Virus record (IMG/VR): IMGVR_UViG_3300028920_001181
Coordinates: 1-34,062 of that record
Length of the DNA: 34,062 nt
Strand: one strand, 5' to 3'
Source of the DNA: a virus
Shown here: positions 3,364 through 8,740 of the stretch, in pieces
Layout of the letters: the number at the start of each line of letters is the position of its first letter
How positions within the stretch are numbered: the stretch's first letter is position 1
Translations under genes and position numbers: made by a program
The notes under the pieces: model-generated
Database searches by the model: none
What the model was told of the DNA's origin: nothing
The model's input: the letters and a program-made list of their open reading frames with translations, nothing else

Positions 3364-3535
3364 ATTTCCGTTGCTAATACCAATTTCCGTAAAGGGGTCC
3401 CTTTCCCGTGCGAGCGGGCACGGGACGCCTGCGGGCGTCGCCCGCGAGGCCGCCGCTTGACGAGTCGGGTAGGCTGGGAACCGTGGATCGTGAGTTCTTA
3501 TTATTAGTTTTTTGTTACAAAAGGAGGTGTATTGT
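3364..3535 (+). promoter_or_regulatory. Structured leader of the Ubl operon (copy A)
   Basis: This gene-free, locally G+C-rich segment has two blocks shared with 10507-10685. One is a 26-base block (3364-3389), itself two ATTTCCG direct repeats flanking TTGCTAATACCA. The other is a 21-base block (3455-3475) that is identical in both copies. The ~65 bases between differ in sequence but not in length. Here they can form a 7-bp hairpin (3405-3411 with 3418-3424) and two mutually exclusive 6-bp hairpins (3424-3429/3434-3439 versus 3431-3436/3440-3445). It ends in AAAGGAGGT before the GTG at 3536. Promoter plus structured 5' UTR is the simplest reading. Confidence 0.6.
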
Positions 3536-3772
3536 GTGAGGTATGGGAATCGTTACGTGGTGATTCGTTTTTTGGAAGGGCGAGGAGCAAGAACGCGGCA
3601 CTTGAGGACAGATGGGATTATTTTGTGGTCCTATCGGGATGCAATTGCCAAGAGACTTGGTACTGACAAAGTTCTTATTTTGAGCAAAGGGTGCTCAAAA
3701 ACAAGCCGATACCATTTCCGATTGGTTCAGGCGGTAGCAACGGAAATGGGTTTTGAGATCATACCGTCATAG
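3536..3772 (+). CDS. Small protein at head of Ubl operon, 78 aa
   Basis: I chose the GTG at 3536 because AAAGGAGGT lies 7 bases upstream; an in-frame TTG at 3512 would read through that ribosome binding site. The protein is basic and mixed alpha/beta. Its central part (ILWSYRDAIAKR ... SKGCSKTSRYHF) resembles small phage and virus proteins with an 'L-x-SY-x-T-x-IA ... S-x-TTS-x-H' pattern and no known function. It is 9 bases upstream of the Ubl gene, so it is first in the operon. Whether it takes part in conjugation or is an unrelated early gene is unknown. Confidence 0.75.
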   Translation: MRYGNRYVVIRFLEGRGARTRHLRTDGIILWSYRDAIAKRLGTDKVLILSKGCSKTSRYHFRLVQAVATEMGFEIIPS

Positions 3773-3781
3773 GAGAAAGAC

Positions 3782-4018
3782 ATGGAGAGTCAGAATCGCA
3801 GAATTTTGGTGTCGGACCACGAGGCAGGTACTTTGGACGAGACCCTGGTGTCGAAATCGAAAACGGCCCAACAGTATCTCCTCGAATTGAAAGGATCGGG
3901 GTGGAGCGAGCGGATGTCAGCTCGTTTGAACGGCCAACTTCTTTCCGAGACGGGAAATCAGGCTTTCTCGGACGGGGATGAGCTGACGCTCAGTCCTCGA
4001 AAGGTGGGTGGAGCCTAA
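3782..4018 (+). CDS. Ubiquitin-like (beta-grasp) modifier ending in Gly-Gly-Ala
   Basis: 78 residues, near the 76 of ubiquitin. The C-terminal half has the ThiS/MoaD/ubiquitin layout: ARLNGQLL, then SDGDELTLSP, then a basic stretch ending KVGGA. The 'DGDELTL.P...GG' pattern is typical of beta-grasp proteins activated by ThiF/E1 enzymes. Gly76-Gly77 are followed by one Ala, so a mature di-glycine terminus would need removal of a single residue. The start follows AGGAG. The next genes encode E2, E2, JAB and E1 proteins, which makes the assignment strong despite low identity to ubiquitin. A terminator-like hairpin directly downstream (4026-4068) could make this the most abundant product of the operon. 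Confidence 0.85.
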   Translation: MESQNRRILVSDHEAGTLDETLVSKSKTAQQYLLELKGSGWSERMSARLNGQLLSETGNQAFSDGDELTLSPRKVGGA

Positions 4019-4025
4019 TCGGAGA

Positions 4026-4068
4026 AGGGGGAGTTGTCCTATGCGGGGCAATTCCCCCTCTTTTTCTT
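4026..4068 (+). terminator. Rho-independent terminator/attenuator after the Ubl gene
   Basis: AGGGGGAGTTG (4026-4036) pairs with CAATTCCCCCT (4049-4059) over 11 bp with one G-T wobble, followed by CTTTTTCTT. It lies inside the operon, so partial read-through would lower expression of the E2, JAB and E1 genes relative to the Ubl. Confidence 0.7.
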
Positions 4069-4097
4069 ATTGTCATTCCTTTATAGGAGAATCGGTC

Positions 4098-5051
4098 ATG
4101 ACAAAAGAAAGAAGAAGGGTCATTCAATTATATTGTCGATTGGTCCAAAGGGTGCAACAGCATCGAATGGCTCAAAAGCGAAGTTCGATAACACGAGCAA
4201 ATTTTTGTGCTCTCGGTTCTTGCGAGAAGTTACGAACCCAGACCAATCTGACTTTGAATTTGATTCATCGCAAATCATGGGGAGAAGCACAAAGATCGTT
4301 GGCTGAAATAAGGGGGATTATCGCTTCGTCGAAATCTCAATATGAGGAATTCCTCCAAGAACTTAAGGTATGGTGCAAGCCCCTACCCAATGTTAAATAT
4401 CGAGTACGCTGGTTACCCTCGGAATTCGACGTGACACAAACGGAAACCCTAGGGATAGCTTGGGTATGGACAACTCCGAAGATTTATCTTAAGAGGAAAC
4501 TCATAGGGCCATACAAAGTATTTGTACCTTGGTCTGCTTTCCTCTACCCCACAACAATTGACATTAGAATCCGGAATTTGAACCCAAAAAGTCCTCACGA
4601 AGGTTATCCGCATCCCCATGCAGATCGAGATGGCCGATTTTGTTTGGGTGCAAACAGAAACGCGATGGAAAATTGTTTCTGGGCATTGGACCTCAGAACA
4701 ATTAAAGACACCATAGAATCTCTTCTGTCCCTTTACAATCCAGACTCGCCTTTTATCAAATGGACGAGATGGAGCCGAAGTGTGAGAAGCTGCTCATGGT
4801 GTGGAGAACCCGTCACAGAGGAGAACGGGGCAGCCCGTACTACAGACGGCGAACTTCTTTGCTCCTCATGTGCGATAATTTGTCCAGTATGCTCACGGTA
4901 TGTGAGGCTGGGTTCCTCACTCGGGTGTCTCATATGTGGCGTTTCACACTGTAATAATTGCCTAAGCAAGTGTTCAATATGCGGTCGTTGGATATGTCCG
5001 AAATGTGTTTCGACCACAAATCCTATCACTTGTTGTGAGTGCCGACACTAA
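4098..5051 (+). CDS. E2-like Ubl-conjugating enzyme with C-terminal Cys-rich zinc domain (E2-a)
   Basis: 317 residues from the ATG at 4098, which follows TAGGAGA; the longer frame from 4008 would overlap the Ubl gene and terminator. Residues about 1-90 are a helical extension. Residues about 95-225 carry the E2 (UBC) core: GYPHPHADRDGRFCLG places His172-Pro173-His174 exactly 8 residues before Cys182, the spacing of the HPN...C motif in eukaryotic E2s. Cys182 is the predicted thioester cysteine. Residues 232-315 contain 16 cysteines, mostly in C-x2-C pairs, including two exact units C-x2-C-x4-C-x2-C starting at Cys277 and Cys292. This domain may act as a built-in E3-like or binding module. It is followed 10 bases later by a paralogue. 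Confidence 0.88.
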   Translation: MTKERRRVIQLYCRLVQRVQQHRMAQKRSSITRANFCALGSCEKLRTQTNLTLNLIHRKSWGEAQRSLAEIRGIIASSKSQYEEFLQELKVWCKPLPNVKYRVRWLPSEFDVTQTETLGIAWVWTTPKIYLKRKLIGPYKVFVPWSAFLYPTTIDIRIRNLNPKSPHEGYPHPHADRDGRFCLGANRNAMENCFWALDLRTIKDTIESLLSLYNPDSPFIKWTRWSRSVRSCSWCGEPVTEENGAARTTDGELLCSSCAIICPVCSRYVRLGSSLGCLICGVSHCNNCLSKCSICGRWICPKCVSTTNPITCCECRH

Positions 5052-5061
5052 GGAGGTCCCC

Positions 5062-6177
5062 ATGAGTCGCTCAGTACGAGAAATAAAATTGCATAATCGA
5101 TTTCTCCATCGGACTCTGAAAGCTCGAACCCGAAATCAGATATTATGGGCCATGTCTATGGCCCGTAGTAACCTCTCGGACCTTCGGAGATTCATGAAAG
5201 GCTTGGAGAAATCCCAAGTGGATCATGCGATGCTTTACCGAATGCAGAGAAGGTTGGGAGAAAGAGTGCCTGAGGTGATCCCATCCTTACTGGGGGAATC
5301 GGAGTGTATCGCACTCCGGTTGAAGCAAGAACTGCCGATGGAACATGGAAGATGGTTTAACTCTTCAAATTCCTTGAATGTTTGGACTTGGGTAACGCCG
5401 ACTCTGCATCTTAGGGGAATAGAATGCGGACCTTTTCTAGTTCGGATTCCATGGCATTACTTCGAGTTTCCCGAAAGGGAGATTCGAATTCACATTACTA
5501 ACCTAAATCCCCTTGAGAGCCATGGGGGATACCCTCATCCTCATGTGGGCAACGACGGTTTTATCTGTCTGGGTAGCAATACTCAGCTAATTCGTAACAT
5601 GGCAAAACTGTTGGATTTGAGGGGTATCCGACAGGCAGTCGAGGATATTTTAGAGGAATATAACGAAGATTCTCCCTACATTAAGTTGGAAGTCTGGAAC
5701 GGGGAAGTTCAAACTTGTGATCGGTGTGAGGACCCCTGTGATCCGGAGGATTTAATATCCTGTACGGCATGTGAATCCCTGGTATGCCCAAGTTGCCGAA
5801 ACAACTGTGCTCTGTGCATGGAATCATTCTGCTCTGAGCATCTGAGCCGCTGTCCCTTGTGCGGCCACTTGGTATGTGAATCATGCTTCGAATTTTGTGA
5901 TATGTGTGGTGATTATGTTTGTTCCCACTGCATGACCTCATGTGAGCATTGCGACATACCCCTATGCTCTGCTTGTGTGCATTCAGATAATCTCTGCTCC
6001 GATTGTCACGACAAGAGCCTAAAACAATGCAGCGAGTGCGGAGTGATCGGTCTCGACGTTGAAGTAAGGGGGTGCTCTTATTGTGGGGAATGGGTTTGTC
6101 AGCAGTGCGGAACATTGAAAGATGGTTCGTTGTACCATCCTGAGTGCTTAACAAAATTAGAAGAAGAGGAGGATTAA
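5062..6177 (+). CDS. Second E2-like enzyme with five exact 15-residue Cys4 repeats (E2-b)
   Basis: 371 residues from the ATG at 5062, behind AAGGAGG. It is a paralogue of the preceding gene: helical N-terminus (1-95), E2 core (about 100-212) with GYPHPHVGNDGFICLGSN, predicted catalytic Cys169 and HPH at 159-161, again with 8-residue spacing. Residues 219-362 hold about 30 cysteines plus histidines. Units of C-x2-C-x4-C-x2-[C/H] begin at Cys234, 249, 264, 279 and 294, an exact 15-residue period, and another begins at Cys338. Interleaved zinc-binding knuckles or treble clefs are likely. The C-terminus is acidic (EEEED). Two E2s could differ in substrate or act as a pair. No known RING domain was assigned with certainty. 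Confidence 0.88.
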   Translation: MSRSVREIKLHNRFLHRTLKARTRNQILWAMSMARSNLSDLRRFMKGLEKSQVDHAMLYRMQRRLGERVPEVIPSLLGESECIALRLKQELPMEHGRWFNSSNSLNVWTWVTPTLHLRGIECGPFLVRIPWHYFEFPEREIRIHITNLNPLESHGGYPHPHVGNDGFICLGSNTQLIRNMAKLLDLRGIRQAVEDILEEYNEDSPYIKLEVWNGEVQTCDRCEDPCDPEDLISCTACESLVCPSCRNNCALCMESFCSEHLSRCPLCGHLVCESCFEFCDMCGDYVCSHCMTSCEHCDIPLCSACVHSDNLCSDCHDKSLKQCSECGVIGLDVEVRGCSYCGEWVCQQCGTLKDGSLYHPECLTKLEEEED

Positions 6178-6178
6178 A

Positions 6179-7132
6179 TTGAGTCGGTGGCGAAATAAAA
6201 GAAAACGTAAATCTCGTTCCAAGGAAAAATCAATGGTAACAACGCCAAAACTCAAGGTGGTAGATCCGAAACCCGTAGCTCCATCACCCTACAAAAGTCC
6301 GATATTACATTTTACGTCGGAGGCATGGAATCATCTTCTGTGGCTTCGAGATCGGGGAGATACCGAAGTTTCAGCCTTCGGGTATCTCGAAGATCAAAAG
6401 GATAATTTGGTGGTCGAGTCCTTAATCATCCCGAAACAGGAATGTTCTTCGGCCACAACAGAAATGGATGATGAGTCCCTCTCTGAATTAGGGGAGGCAA
6501 TGACCAAAAAGCGTGTAGTACCTTGGAGATACACCAGGGTTTGGATTCACACCCATCCTGGAGAAAGTCCAACCCCTTCCTCGAAGGACTGGGAAACATT
6601 CAGGGAGATCTTCGGAAGATCGAATTGGGCCATCATGTTCGTTTTAGCGAAGGGTGGGCAGACTCATTGTCAAATGGTCCTAAGATCGGACCGATGGGAA
6701 TTGTATCAAACGATTCCCTGTAAAGTCTTGACTCCTGTTGGTCGGGAATGGGAGGAAGAGTATCGAGCTAAAATTGAGACAAAAACATACGGCATTCCGA
6801 TGGGATATGGTTCTTACCAACTTCCTGCCCACTACCAAGACAAGGATTCGGATATCGACGATCCCGAATCCTTTCCCGATTGGTCGGAAAGCCAGAATCC
6901 AGAAACATCGGATGTGATCGAGGATGAGACAGGATATCCCTCGAACGCAGACGGACAAAGAGCCCTTGAAGAAGATTTGGCCTTCGAGCTACAAGCTGGC
7001 GGATCTCCCCCAAATGTTGGGTCGGAGTCCGATTGGAAATGGAGTGACCATTCTCAGAGGTGGTACTACTTTGGAAATTGTATTCGGATTCAAGCAGCAG
7101 TCGTAAACGTCGTGACCGAATACGCAATGTAA
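6179..7132 (+). CDS. JAMM/JAB metallopeptidase (predicted Ubl protease/deconjugase)
   Basis: 317 residues from a TTG one base after the E2-b stop, with GAGGAGG upstream; an ATG at 6233, preceded by AAGGA, is an alternative start. Residues about 40-175 form the JAB fold with a complete catalytic set: Glu63 (DTEVSAFG) and HTHPGESPTPSSKD, which is H124-x-H126-x7-S134-x2-D137. All zinc ligands and the acid/base are present, so it should be active. Likely roles are trimming the terminal Ala of the Ubl precursor and removing Ubl from targets. The N-terminus is strongly basic (RKRKSRSKEK). Residues about 185-317 are acidic and polar with no recognised domain, ending in a tryptophan/tyrosine-rich segment. 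Confidence 0.88.
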   Translation: MSRWRNKRKRKSRSKEKSMVTTPKLKVVDPKPVAPSPYKSPILHFTSEAWNHLLWLRDRGDTEVSAFGYLEDQKDNLVVESLIIPKQECSSATTEMDDESLSELGEAMTKKRVVPWRYTRVWIHTHPGESPTPSSKDWETFREIFGRSNWAIMFVLAKGGQTHCQMVLRSDRWELYQTIPCKVLTPVGREWEEEYRAKIETKTYGIPMGYGSYQLPAHYQDKDSDIDDPESFPDWSESQNPETSDVIEDETGYPSNADGQRALEEDLAFELQAGGSPPNVGSESDWKWSDHSQRWYYFGNCIRIQAAVVNVVTEYAM

Positions 7133-7142
7133 AGGAGAAACC

Positions 7143-7823
7143 ATGCTTCCGATGCAAGTTGATAGAACCCTTCGGTTTTCAACATTATTCGATGTTGAAA
7201 AGCTAATTCAAACTCCAGTCCGAATCATCGGATGTGGAGCTGTCGGGAGGCAGGTTGCTTTGCAACTTGCTGCAATGGGGGTGAGCGAGTTGTATATTTG
7301 TGATTTTGACACAATCACGAGTCACAATGTCGGGAGTCAGGGTTGGCATCCCCGCGAAGTTGGGAAACTCAAGATCGAAATGTTGAGGGAAACACTTCAA
7401 CATTGGAATGGGACCATTTGGACCCAGGAAGGAAAGTGGGAAGAGGGGGATGAAGAAGGAGATTTTCCCACTTTCCTATGCGTGGATTCCCTTTCCGCAA
7501 GACGTAAATGTCTTCGGAAATTGCGAACATTGGGAGTCCCCATCATCATCGACGGAAGAATGGGAGCAGAATATTTCCAAGTGTTCACAGTTCCACGAGG
7601 GCAAGAAGCAGATTTTCTCGACAAGATTCCGAAACAATCGGAACAACATCAGGCCCCATGCACAGCACGGAGTACCCTGTATTGTGCCAATATCGTGGCG
7701 GGGTACATGGTAGCTTCGTACACTGCTTGGATTCGGAAAGCTCCCTCCTTTCCGCTGATCGAAGGGAATATTCTAAGCCGGGAACTCCTTCGCTATCGGA
7801 AATGGGAGGATATCGAACTATGA
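7143..7823 (+). CDS. ThiF/E1-like Ubl-activating enzyme
   Basis: 226 residues, the size of a minimal single-domain E1/ThiF adenylyltransferase. RIIGCGAVGRQVA (27-39) is the Rossmann nucleotide-binding loop; YICDFDTITSHNVGSQ (51-66) supplies Asp54, Asp56 and Asn62; Lys75 or Lys77 follows. DGRMGAEYFQVFTV (137-150) is typical of ThiF proteins linked to E2/JAB genes. Cys173 (QAPCTAR) is the best candidate for a thioester cysteine, with Cys181 nearby. The Arg usually found in the N-x-x-R-Q motif is Ser65 here. Expected reaction: adenylation of the Ubl C-terminal Gly, then transfer to an E2. It starts behind AAAGGAG and overlaps the next gene in ATGA. Confidence 0.88.
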   Translation: MLPMQVDRTLRFSTLFDVEKLIQTPVRIIGCGAVGRQVALQLAAMGVSELYICDFDTITSHNVGSQGWHPREVGKLKIEMLRETLQHWNGTIWTQEGKWEEGDEEGDFPTFLCVDSLSARRKCLRKLRTLGVPIIIDGRMGAEYFQVFTVPRGQEADFLDKIPKQSEQHQAPCTARSTLYCANIVAGYMVASYTAWIRKAPSFPLIEGNILSRELLRYRKWEDIEL

Positions 7824-8740
7824 CAACAATTTTCGACTTCGCATGTCGGGAATGTGGCAGAATCCCGGAATGCCGATTCCATTTGGAAATGTTGGATCGA
7901 GCTCATCTGTTTGATCTACCCGTTATTCCCCATGAGATGCTACCGAAACGATGGTCCCAGGACCAATTGGACTGGTTTCAGGACAATTTCATGCTGCCTT
8001 TCCCTATCATCGGGATTGAAGATCGAGCATCTTTAATCCTGCTGATGGCCCAGAATGAGGGTACCGTAGGCACCCAACAACCTTGGAGATTCATCGAATT
8101 TCTGAGGGAGAAGAGTGATCCTCGGGCATTTCGGGAAGGGGTGGAAGATCTTAATCCCAATAGCCCCACATCGAATAACGTGGGGGGTCTACTGATCCAA
8201 TGGGGGACTTTGCAACAAGAATCCGTTTCCGAAACGGGATATCAGTTGACGGGATCTCTCGCCGGAATTTATATGATCCCTGATCAAACAGGGGATCTTC
8301 TGAACTTGAACCAATGGAGAAGTTCAGAAGATATCGTGACAGCAGCAATACGGAATGCCAACGTGGCCTTAGAGGAGGCTATGGTTTTGGCGAATCGGGA
8401 AACATTCATACTCGAAACTACGCCCTTGGCAGGGCTAAAAAAGCTGGCAAAAAGACCGGAACAAGCTAAAAAAGCTAACTTTCGGTTAAGACCTCTCCGA
8501 AGCCACGAGAGGTCCATTTACACTGTTCTCAGGCCCCACGAAATTCGCAAAGTAATGCGATTGGACGAGGATACTCATCGGTCTGTCCGAGTTCATGAGC
8601 GTCGGGGCCACCAAAGAGTGCTTCGAAGTGACAAATTCACCAAAGCACGGGGGAAAAAGATTTGGATCAATGCCACTTGGGTAGGGGTGTCTGAACAAAC
8701 AATAGGCCGAAAACGATATCGTGTAATTCTTGATGCTTAG
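7820..8740 (+). CDS. Unknown protein translationally coupled to the E1 gene, 306 aa
   Basis: The ATG at 7820 overlaps the E1 stop (ATGA), so translation is probably coupled; the frame is open further upstream but only as an overlap with E1. CRECGRIPEC near the N-terminus (9-18) could bind metal. The middle is helical. The C-terminal ~75 residues are basic, with VHERRGHQRVLRS and KKIWINATWVG (258-289). A similar 'H-x-RRGH ... W-V-x-x-x-W-V-G' pattern occurs in phage and plasmid proteins of unknown function. It may bind nucleic acid or be a target or adaptor of the Ubl pathway; neither is shown. Confidence 0.8.
   Translation: MTTIFDFACRECGRIPECRFHLEMLDRAHLFDLPVIPHEMLPKRWSQDQLDWFQDNFMLPFPIIGIEDRASLILLMAQNEGTVGTQQPWRFIEFLREKSDPRAFREGVEDLNPNSPTSNNVGGLLIQWGTLQQESVSETGYQLTGSLAGIYMIPDQTGDLLNLNQWRSSEDIVTAAIRNANVALEEAMVLANRETFILETTPLAGLKKLAKRPEQAKKANFRLRPLRSHERSIYTVLRPHEIRKVMRLDEDTHRSVRVHERRGHQRVLRSDKFTKARGKKIWINATWVGVSEQTIGRKRYRVILDA

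Follow-up and report, generated by a model that had tools for sequence, protein, structure and literature searches.

A phage Ubl-E2-JAB-E1 gene cassette with two adjacent E2-like genes that differ in their Cys-rich tails

Described conjugation operons and the phage cassette

Host defence is the setting in which prokaryotic Ubl conjugation is mainly known. Prokaryotic Ubl-conjugation operons were described by Iyer et al. 2006 (PMC1779556), and those of their group 6d contain Ubl, JAB, E1-like and E2-like genes together with an alpha-helical protein (PMC1779556). The group 6d E2 is without the conserved His of classical E2s and instead possesses a His after the Cys (PMC1779556). In the BilABCD antiphage system, which consists of Ubl, E2, JAB and E1, the JAB trims the Ubl before use; BilA contains two Ubl domains, BilD two adenylation domains, and BilB a CEHH motif (PMC11354881). 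In phages, the lambda-type tail genes TAPI and TAPK belong to neighbourhoods of tail-assembly genes for which no E1 or E2 is listed (PMC1779556).

The whole stretch of DNA analysed here (34,062 bases, called the window) is an IMG/VR virus record that includes terminase, portal and capsid genes. Its plus strand carries, at 3782-7823, five tightly spaced genes in the order Ubl precursor, E2-a, E2-b, JAB and E1, and all four functions (Ubl, E1, E2 and JAB) are thereby adjacent in one apparent operon (Table 1). E2-a and E2-b are each preceded by an AGGAG-type ribosome site, and the spacing between them is 10 bp.

Table 1. Positions of the cassette genes and their characteristic segments in the window
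Feature	Position	Strand	Description
Small ORF	3512..3772	+	directly 5' of Ubl
Ubl precursor	3782..4018	+	78 aa; ends ...SPRKVGGA, one residue beyond Gly-Gly
E2-a	4098-5051	+	ATG, 317 aa; helical N-terminus, UBC core, short Cys-rich tail; diverged copy
E2-a UBC core	4449..4784	+	about residues 118-229
E2-a active-site block	4611..4648	+	HPHADRDGRFCLG; catalytic-type Cys182 at 4641-4643
E2-a tail	4788..5048	+	17 Cys in 87 aa; two exact 15-residue CxxCx4CxxC units, starts 4926 and 4971
E2-b	5062-6177	+	ATG, 371 aa; helical N-terminus, UBC core, long Cys-rich tail; more conserved copy
E2-b UBC core	5374..5700	+	about residues 105-213
E2-b active-site block	5536..5573	+	HPHVGNDGFICLG; catalytic-type Cys169 at 5566-5568
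E2-b tail	5713..6174	+	31 Cys in 154 aa; five exact units and one ending in His
JAB/MPN isopeptidase	6179..7132	+	intact HTHPGESPTPSSKD metal site, 6548-6589
E1-like adenylating enzyme	7143..7823	+	226 residues; GCGAVG loop; acceptor Cys candidate C173 at 7659-7661

The cassette resembles group 6d in placing the same four functions on separate genes of one operon, but its E2s keep the His (HPH) and consist of a UBC core followed by a Cys-rich array. The set of Ubl, E2, JAB and E1 is also that of BilABCD, whereas the window's Ubl is single-domain (78 aa), its E1 is a short ThiF-type enzyme of 226 residues, its E2s combine HPH...C with a zinc-type tail, and the whole set is carried by a phage. 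TAPI and TAPK resemble the cassette in that a Ubl domain adjoins a JAB protease in a phage. The eukaryotic E2s Ubc13, Rad6, Ubc1 and UBE2S have the UBC fold and the H-P-x...G..C-L position in common with the phage E2s; however, sequence similarity is very low, the Asn of HPN is a His in the phage proteins, and these possess a fused helical N-terminus and a Cys-rich array. The differences from these systems are the HPH active site, the fused array of predicted zinc units, the phage carrier, the wide viral spread and the recurrent tandem amplification of E2. Complete Ubl-E2-JAB-E1 cassettes are here carried by phages themselves, with E2s that are invisible to standard family libraries. No report of a phage-encoded Ubl-E2-JAB-E1 set was found in the open-access literature, which does not show that none exists.

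The partners of the E2s are assigned from several kinds of matches. The window's Ubl is matched at E=7.5e-7 by a phage-Ubl model built without it, and weakly by ThiS. In about 80 loci a Ubl homologue with a Gly-rich end precedes E2. For most Ubls the ending is Gly-Gly or x-Gly-x plus zero to few further residues (GGA, GGM, GGN, GGK, EGA); since the extension is short at most, these ends fit the expectation for JAB-matured precursors. The JAB matches Prok-JAB (E=8e-4) and the PADLOC JAB model (3e-7), and the H, P, S and D of its metal site are invariant in three aligned JABs. E1 is a clear ThiF-family protein (6.7e-17) whose candidate acceptor Cys is within a conserved CTA[RK] motif, with C-T-A-x-x-T retained. 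The PRTRC ThiF model TIGR03736 gives the window's E1 35.7 bits, below its cut-off of 144.75; the PRTRC set is what we take group 6d to be.

Shared build and diverged tails of E2-a and E2-b

An earlier note on this DNA had described the two E2s as sharing a helical N-terminus, an E2 core and a Cys-rich tail, and this description is borne out by AlphaFold2 helices, by profile and structure matches in the PDB and by counts of tail units. The pairwise alignment that the note asked for covers 304 aa at 30% identity (BLASTP, E=2e-45), with 43-44% identity in the UBC cores, and each protein is the best match of the other by a margin of about 100 bits. Long N-terminal helices are predicted at residues 3-92 of E2-a and at residues 3-46 and 54-90 of E2-b. 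The 50 matches listed from the PDB for the E2-a model (mean pLDDT 81) are without exception E2s of the UBC fold (Z 5.8-6.8, with rmsd 3.4-4.6 A over 96-138 residues), and every PDB match of a profile of the E2 core is an E2, the best at E=0.003. The E2-b model has a weak Foldseek match to human Cdc34. Its structure search carries little information on the core, because the listed matches are filled by the N-terminal helices, and the missing E2s are for this reason not evidence against a UBC fold. Neither protein has an E2 family match in Pfam, PHROGs, NCBIfam or PADLOC, and among 23 aligned family members no Pfam prokaryotic-E2 model was matched, the only hit being a single weak one to UQ_con.

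The HPHxxxDGxxCLG block, the counterpart of H-P-N...C in eukaryotic E2s, is intact in both copies, and the corresponding DNA pattern occurs exactly 2 times in the window, with 0.00 expected. Active-site H-P, C and G are invariant across the aligned family and are retained by both E2-a and E2-b along with the catalytic Cys, which supports the suggestion that neither is an obvious inactive variant. The Asn of canonical HPN is absent: HPH is found in both window copies and in nearly all relatives, an exception being the third of three E2s in locus L169, which has canonical HPN and a long Cys-rich tail. Because His is the family's own state, the two proteins are called UBC-fold E2-like rather than canonical E2s, and their transfer chemistry may differ from that of eukaryotic E2s, with His replacing Asn.

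The tails are built of a 15-residue unit, C-x2-C-x4-C-x2-C-x3. E2-a contains the pattern C..C....C..C 2 times, where composition shuffles predict 0.08 (P=0.005); E2-b contains it 5 times (6 with His as the last ligand), where they predict 0.21 (P<0.0002), so the earlier count of two units versus five or six holds. E2-a has, besides its exact units, two more with missing ligands. Its tail corresponds to roughly the first four E2-b units, with ligands lost in two, and ends just before the ribosome site of E2-b. In the structural models a large part of the E2-a tail exceeds pLDDT 90, and the E2-b tail forms a regular array of short hairpins with pLDDT about 95 in the central units. A tail profile gives weak matches to RING, FYVE and LIM-type zinc domains; the units are regular CxxCx4CxxC. 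Prokaryotic RING fingers are reportedly the subject of Burroughs et al. 2011. Long Cys tails are usual in the window's clade, with up to 45 Cys and 20 CxxC. Since these same-clade tails often exceed either window tail, the short tail of E2-a is read as a reduction and is probably the derived state. Some related E2s possess no Cys tail, and the tail is therefore not essential to the pathway everywhere.

Related cassettes and the history of the duplication

The order Ubl-E2-JAB-E1 recurs in about 100 IMG/VR loci and in two deltaproteobacterial MAGs. Relatives were gathered by the active-site DNA pattern, by an E1 search, which found relatives in 357 viral contigs (the best 80 of 357 were used), and by a JAB search (26 loci). 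JAB and E2 are present in the same gene order in 95 loci of the first sets, and this order is also that of the 26 loci from the JAB search, whose contigs are partly shared with the first sets. Among the 95 first-set loci only the window and L035 possess two E2s, nearly all loci having a single one. The JAB search added L169, whose cassette contains two Ubls and a run of three neighbouring E2s, and L168, where two additional ORFs are weakly E2-like. With E2-b alone as protein query, no matches were obtained in viral contigs or phage records, and the whole-family alignment is too diverse for a pattern-based scan. Several matches of the active-site DNA pattern (the VPEHPHTFIDGAACLGQ group, L052, L057 and L059) were dropped as chance matches without cassette neighbours, as was L061.

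The relatives vary in architecture. In a large branch (L013, L017, L018, L022, L023, L026, L027, L043, L055, L056 and L060) the HPH E2 core continues into about 330-380 residues that lack zinc motifs; JAB and E1 are still adjacent, and in most loci of the branch the Ubl ends in KVTSG. The two adjacent Ubls of L169 (1736-6095, together with its three E2s) end in ...ARLD, without Gly-Gly, and ...KLEGAFAA. In L154, L158, L159 and L172 the complete cassette is preceded by another E1-like and another Ubl-like ORF, which suggests two modules in parallel. Opposite-strand ORFs resembling Cys-rich homing endonucleases of the HNH type, by motif reading, are located inside the cassettes of L070 (418-1176 and 2430-3125) and L077 (5266-5985). 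Both deltaproteobacterial MAGs (L063, a 122 kb contig of RBG_13_61_14, and L062) carry single-E2 cassettes whose Ubls end in EGGN and EGGM, and which could be prophage or cellular.

Cultured phages contain more distant versions. All of the crAss-like, Flavobacterium and Xanthomonas/Erwinia phages have an E1 homologue in common with the window, though at only 23-33% identity. In the crAss-like and Flavobacterium phages JAB lies upstream of E1, and an E2 is represented, if at all, by a very diverged HSH...C[LI]G protein that is not significantly detected; in the Xanthomonas/Erwinia jumbo phages E1 is accompanied by a large protein that combines an E2 domain with a Cys-rich end. The annotated E1s of these phages are mostly labelled 'thiamine biosynthesis'. 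The 'thiamine' gene adjoins JAB in crAss-like cr111_1 (L144) and Flavobacterium phage FpV4 (L145); in Xanthomonas phage PhiXhv-12 (L146) it adjoins the E2 domain with Cys-rich end, which is upstream of E1, and no JAB match was found. Small upstream proteins resemble Ubl precursors. The annotation of these loci, which belong to sequenced and in part cultured phages, is probably wrong, and they are likely to be conjugation cassettes; those of the crAss-like and Flavobacterium phages open the way to genetic work.

The earlier note had proposed tandem duplication and asked for a tree, naming independent origin as the outcome against it. Three trees place E2-a next to E2-b as its sister (support 99/90, 98/96 and 99/97), two do the same for the L035 pair (99/90 and 96/94), and the three L169 copies cluster (95/66; two of the three at 97/81), all in trees of short cores (124-257 columns used) with long branches. 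An older duplication, inherited and followed by loss of one copy in relatives such as L030, with no duplication in the window's own lineage, is unlikely. The long-branched L030 E2 can be grouped with either window copy without rejection by the AU test (p-AU 0.32-0.45), but the window pair has 98-99% support as sisters, the grouping of E2-a with L041 is rejected (p=0.001), and so is that of E2-b with the second L035 copy (p=0.0002). The latter result speaks against a pair inherited from an ancestor shared with L035, although joining E2-a to the first copy of L035 falls short of rejection and is only disfavoured (p=0.09). Tandem duplication thus stands on the three trees, on the mutual best match and on the single E2 of nearly all relatives, with the L030 placements not rejected. 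It also recurs, as L035 (two copies) and L169 (three) amplified separately; tandem amplification of E2 most likely took place independently in at least three lineages (window, L035 and L169).

Within the window pair E2-a is the derived copy, as it is changed at 10 sites from the consensus of nine relatives and E2-b at 2; branch lengths are 1.00 for E2-a and 0.45 for E2-b. A general rule by which the upstream copy degenerates is not proposed, the branch asymmetry in L035 not being confirmed by site counts.

Possible roles of the pair, and the flanking genes

The observed gene order, duplication, fold, motif retention, tail repeats and conservation across phages are best read as a phage Ubl-conjugation cassette in which E2 has been duplicated, E2-b being the ancestral copy and E2-a a derived one that would act on another target or modulate E2-b; we give this reading a probability of about 0.6. 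Chemistry, zinc binding, an E3-like role of the tails and separate targets form its inferred layer. One E1 and one Ubl would be common to two E2s. In line with what is established for E1-E2-JAB systems, the JAB would trim the last residue of the Ubl precursor and expose Gly-Gly, as is reported for BilA and BilC (PMC11354881). The trimmed Ubl would then be adenylated by E1 and handed to the active-site Cys of either E2, which would pass it on to a lysine. The predicted zinc array on each E2 is the most likely stand-in for a separate E3 and might hold the substrate or stimulate transfer; JAB might also take the tag off. E2-b, with its long ancestral array and slow evolution, would retain the ancestral job. 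E2-a, with a truncated array, some lost zinc ligands and faster core evolution, would most likely send the same Ubl to a different protein, or modulate E2-b. The cassette would thus be a natural two-branch version of the simplest pathway, with one E1, one Ubl and two E2s that differ most visibly in the zinc array.

The evidence leans towards specialisation of the two E2s over an obligate pair, because a single E2 is the rule and tandem amplification appears to have been separate in at least three lineages. E2-a and E2-b might instead act as a heterodimer, obligately or by preference, joined through the N-terminal helices in the manner of Ubc13-Mms2, with one subunit positioning the substrate or another Ubl. 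This would accord with the adjacency of the paralogues in one apparent operon, with the long helices predicted for both and with a shorter, faster-evolving E2-a, as a regulatory partner might be. It is nevertheless improbable, as one E2 suffices in nearly all relatives and both copies, unlike Mms2-type variants, possess the active-site Cys.

E2-a could also be drifting towards loss of function, and its shorter tail, lost zinc ligands and longer branch would suit a decaying or dosage copy with no role of its own. This is somewhat less probable still: the frame is intact, the ribosome site is good, multi-E2 cassettes arose repeatedly, and every family-invariant active-site residue is kept despite only 43% core identity to E2-b, which argues for long maintenance of E2-a. 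A sulfur-carrier or small-molecule/peptide adenylation cassette of the ThiS/ThiF kind, with the E2-like proteins as accessories and no protein tagging, is very improbable, for although ThiF models give E1 its best scores and homologues in cultured phages are annotated as thiamine biosynthesis, no thiamine genes were seen in the vicinity, a fixed order of genes for a JAB and for UBC-fold proteins whose Cys is invariant is typical of conjugation operons, and in many Ubl precursors the Gly is followed by additional residues.

Beyond the preferred reading of a conjugation cassette with specialised E2s, a broader proposal is put forward tentatively, at odds well short of even: that phage Ubl systems build E3 function into the E2 as an expandable array of zinc units, and diversify their targets by tandem amplification of E2 (and sometimes Ubl) followed by shortening or lengthening of the array. 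If true, the amplification of arrays and E2s in phages would be a viral counterpart to the expansion of the eukaryotic E2/E3 repertoire.

Some flanking features may also be mentioned. The small ORF directly 5' of Ubl has an alignable small counterpart, likewise upstream of Ubl, in L030 and possibly in L098, and its membership of the cassette is uncertain. The predicted folding of a GC-rich stretch (3385-3500) is no stronger than that of shuffled sequences (z -1.0), and neither Rfam families nor tRNAs were found in the window. Downstream, a 306-aa ORF with an N-terminal CxxC (7820-8740) overlaps the E1 stop codon and may belong to the operon; it has no family match and no counterpart in the other loci. 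A short way 5' of the cassette lies a very Gly-rich, tail-fibre-like protein of 355 aa (1458-2525) with long Gly runs and no Pfam match. Finally, an open-ended ORF on the minus strand (1-1404) contains, by motif reading, a uracil-DNA-glycosylase-type domain and an exonuclease/polymerase-like domain.
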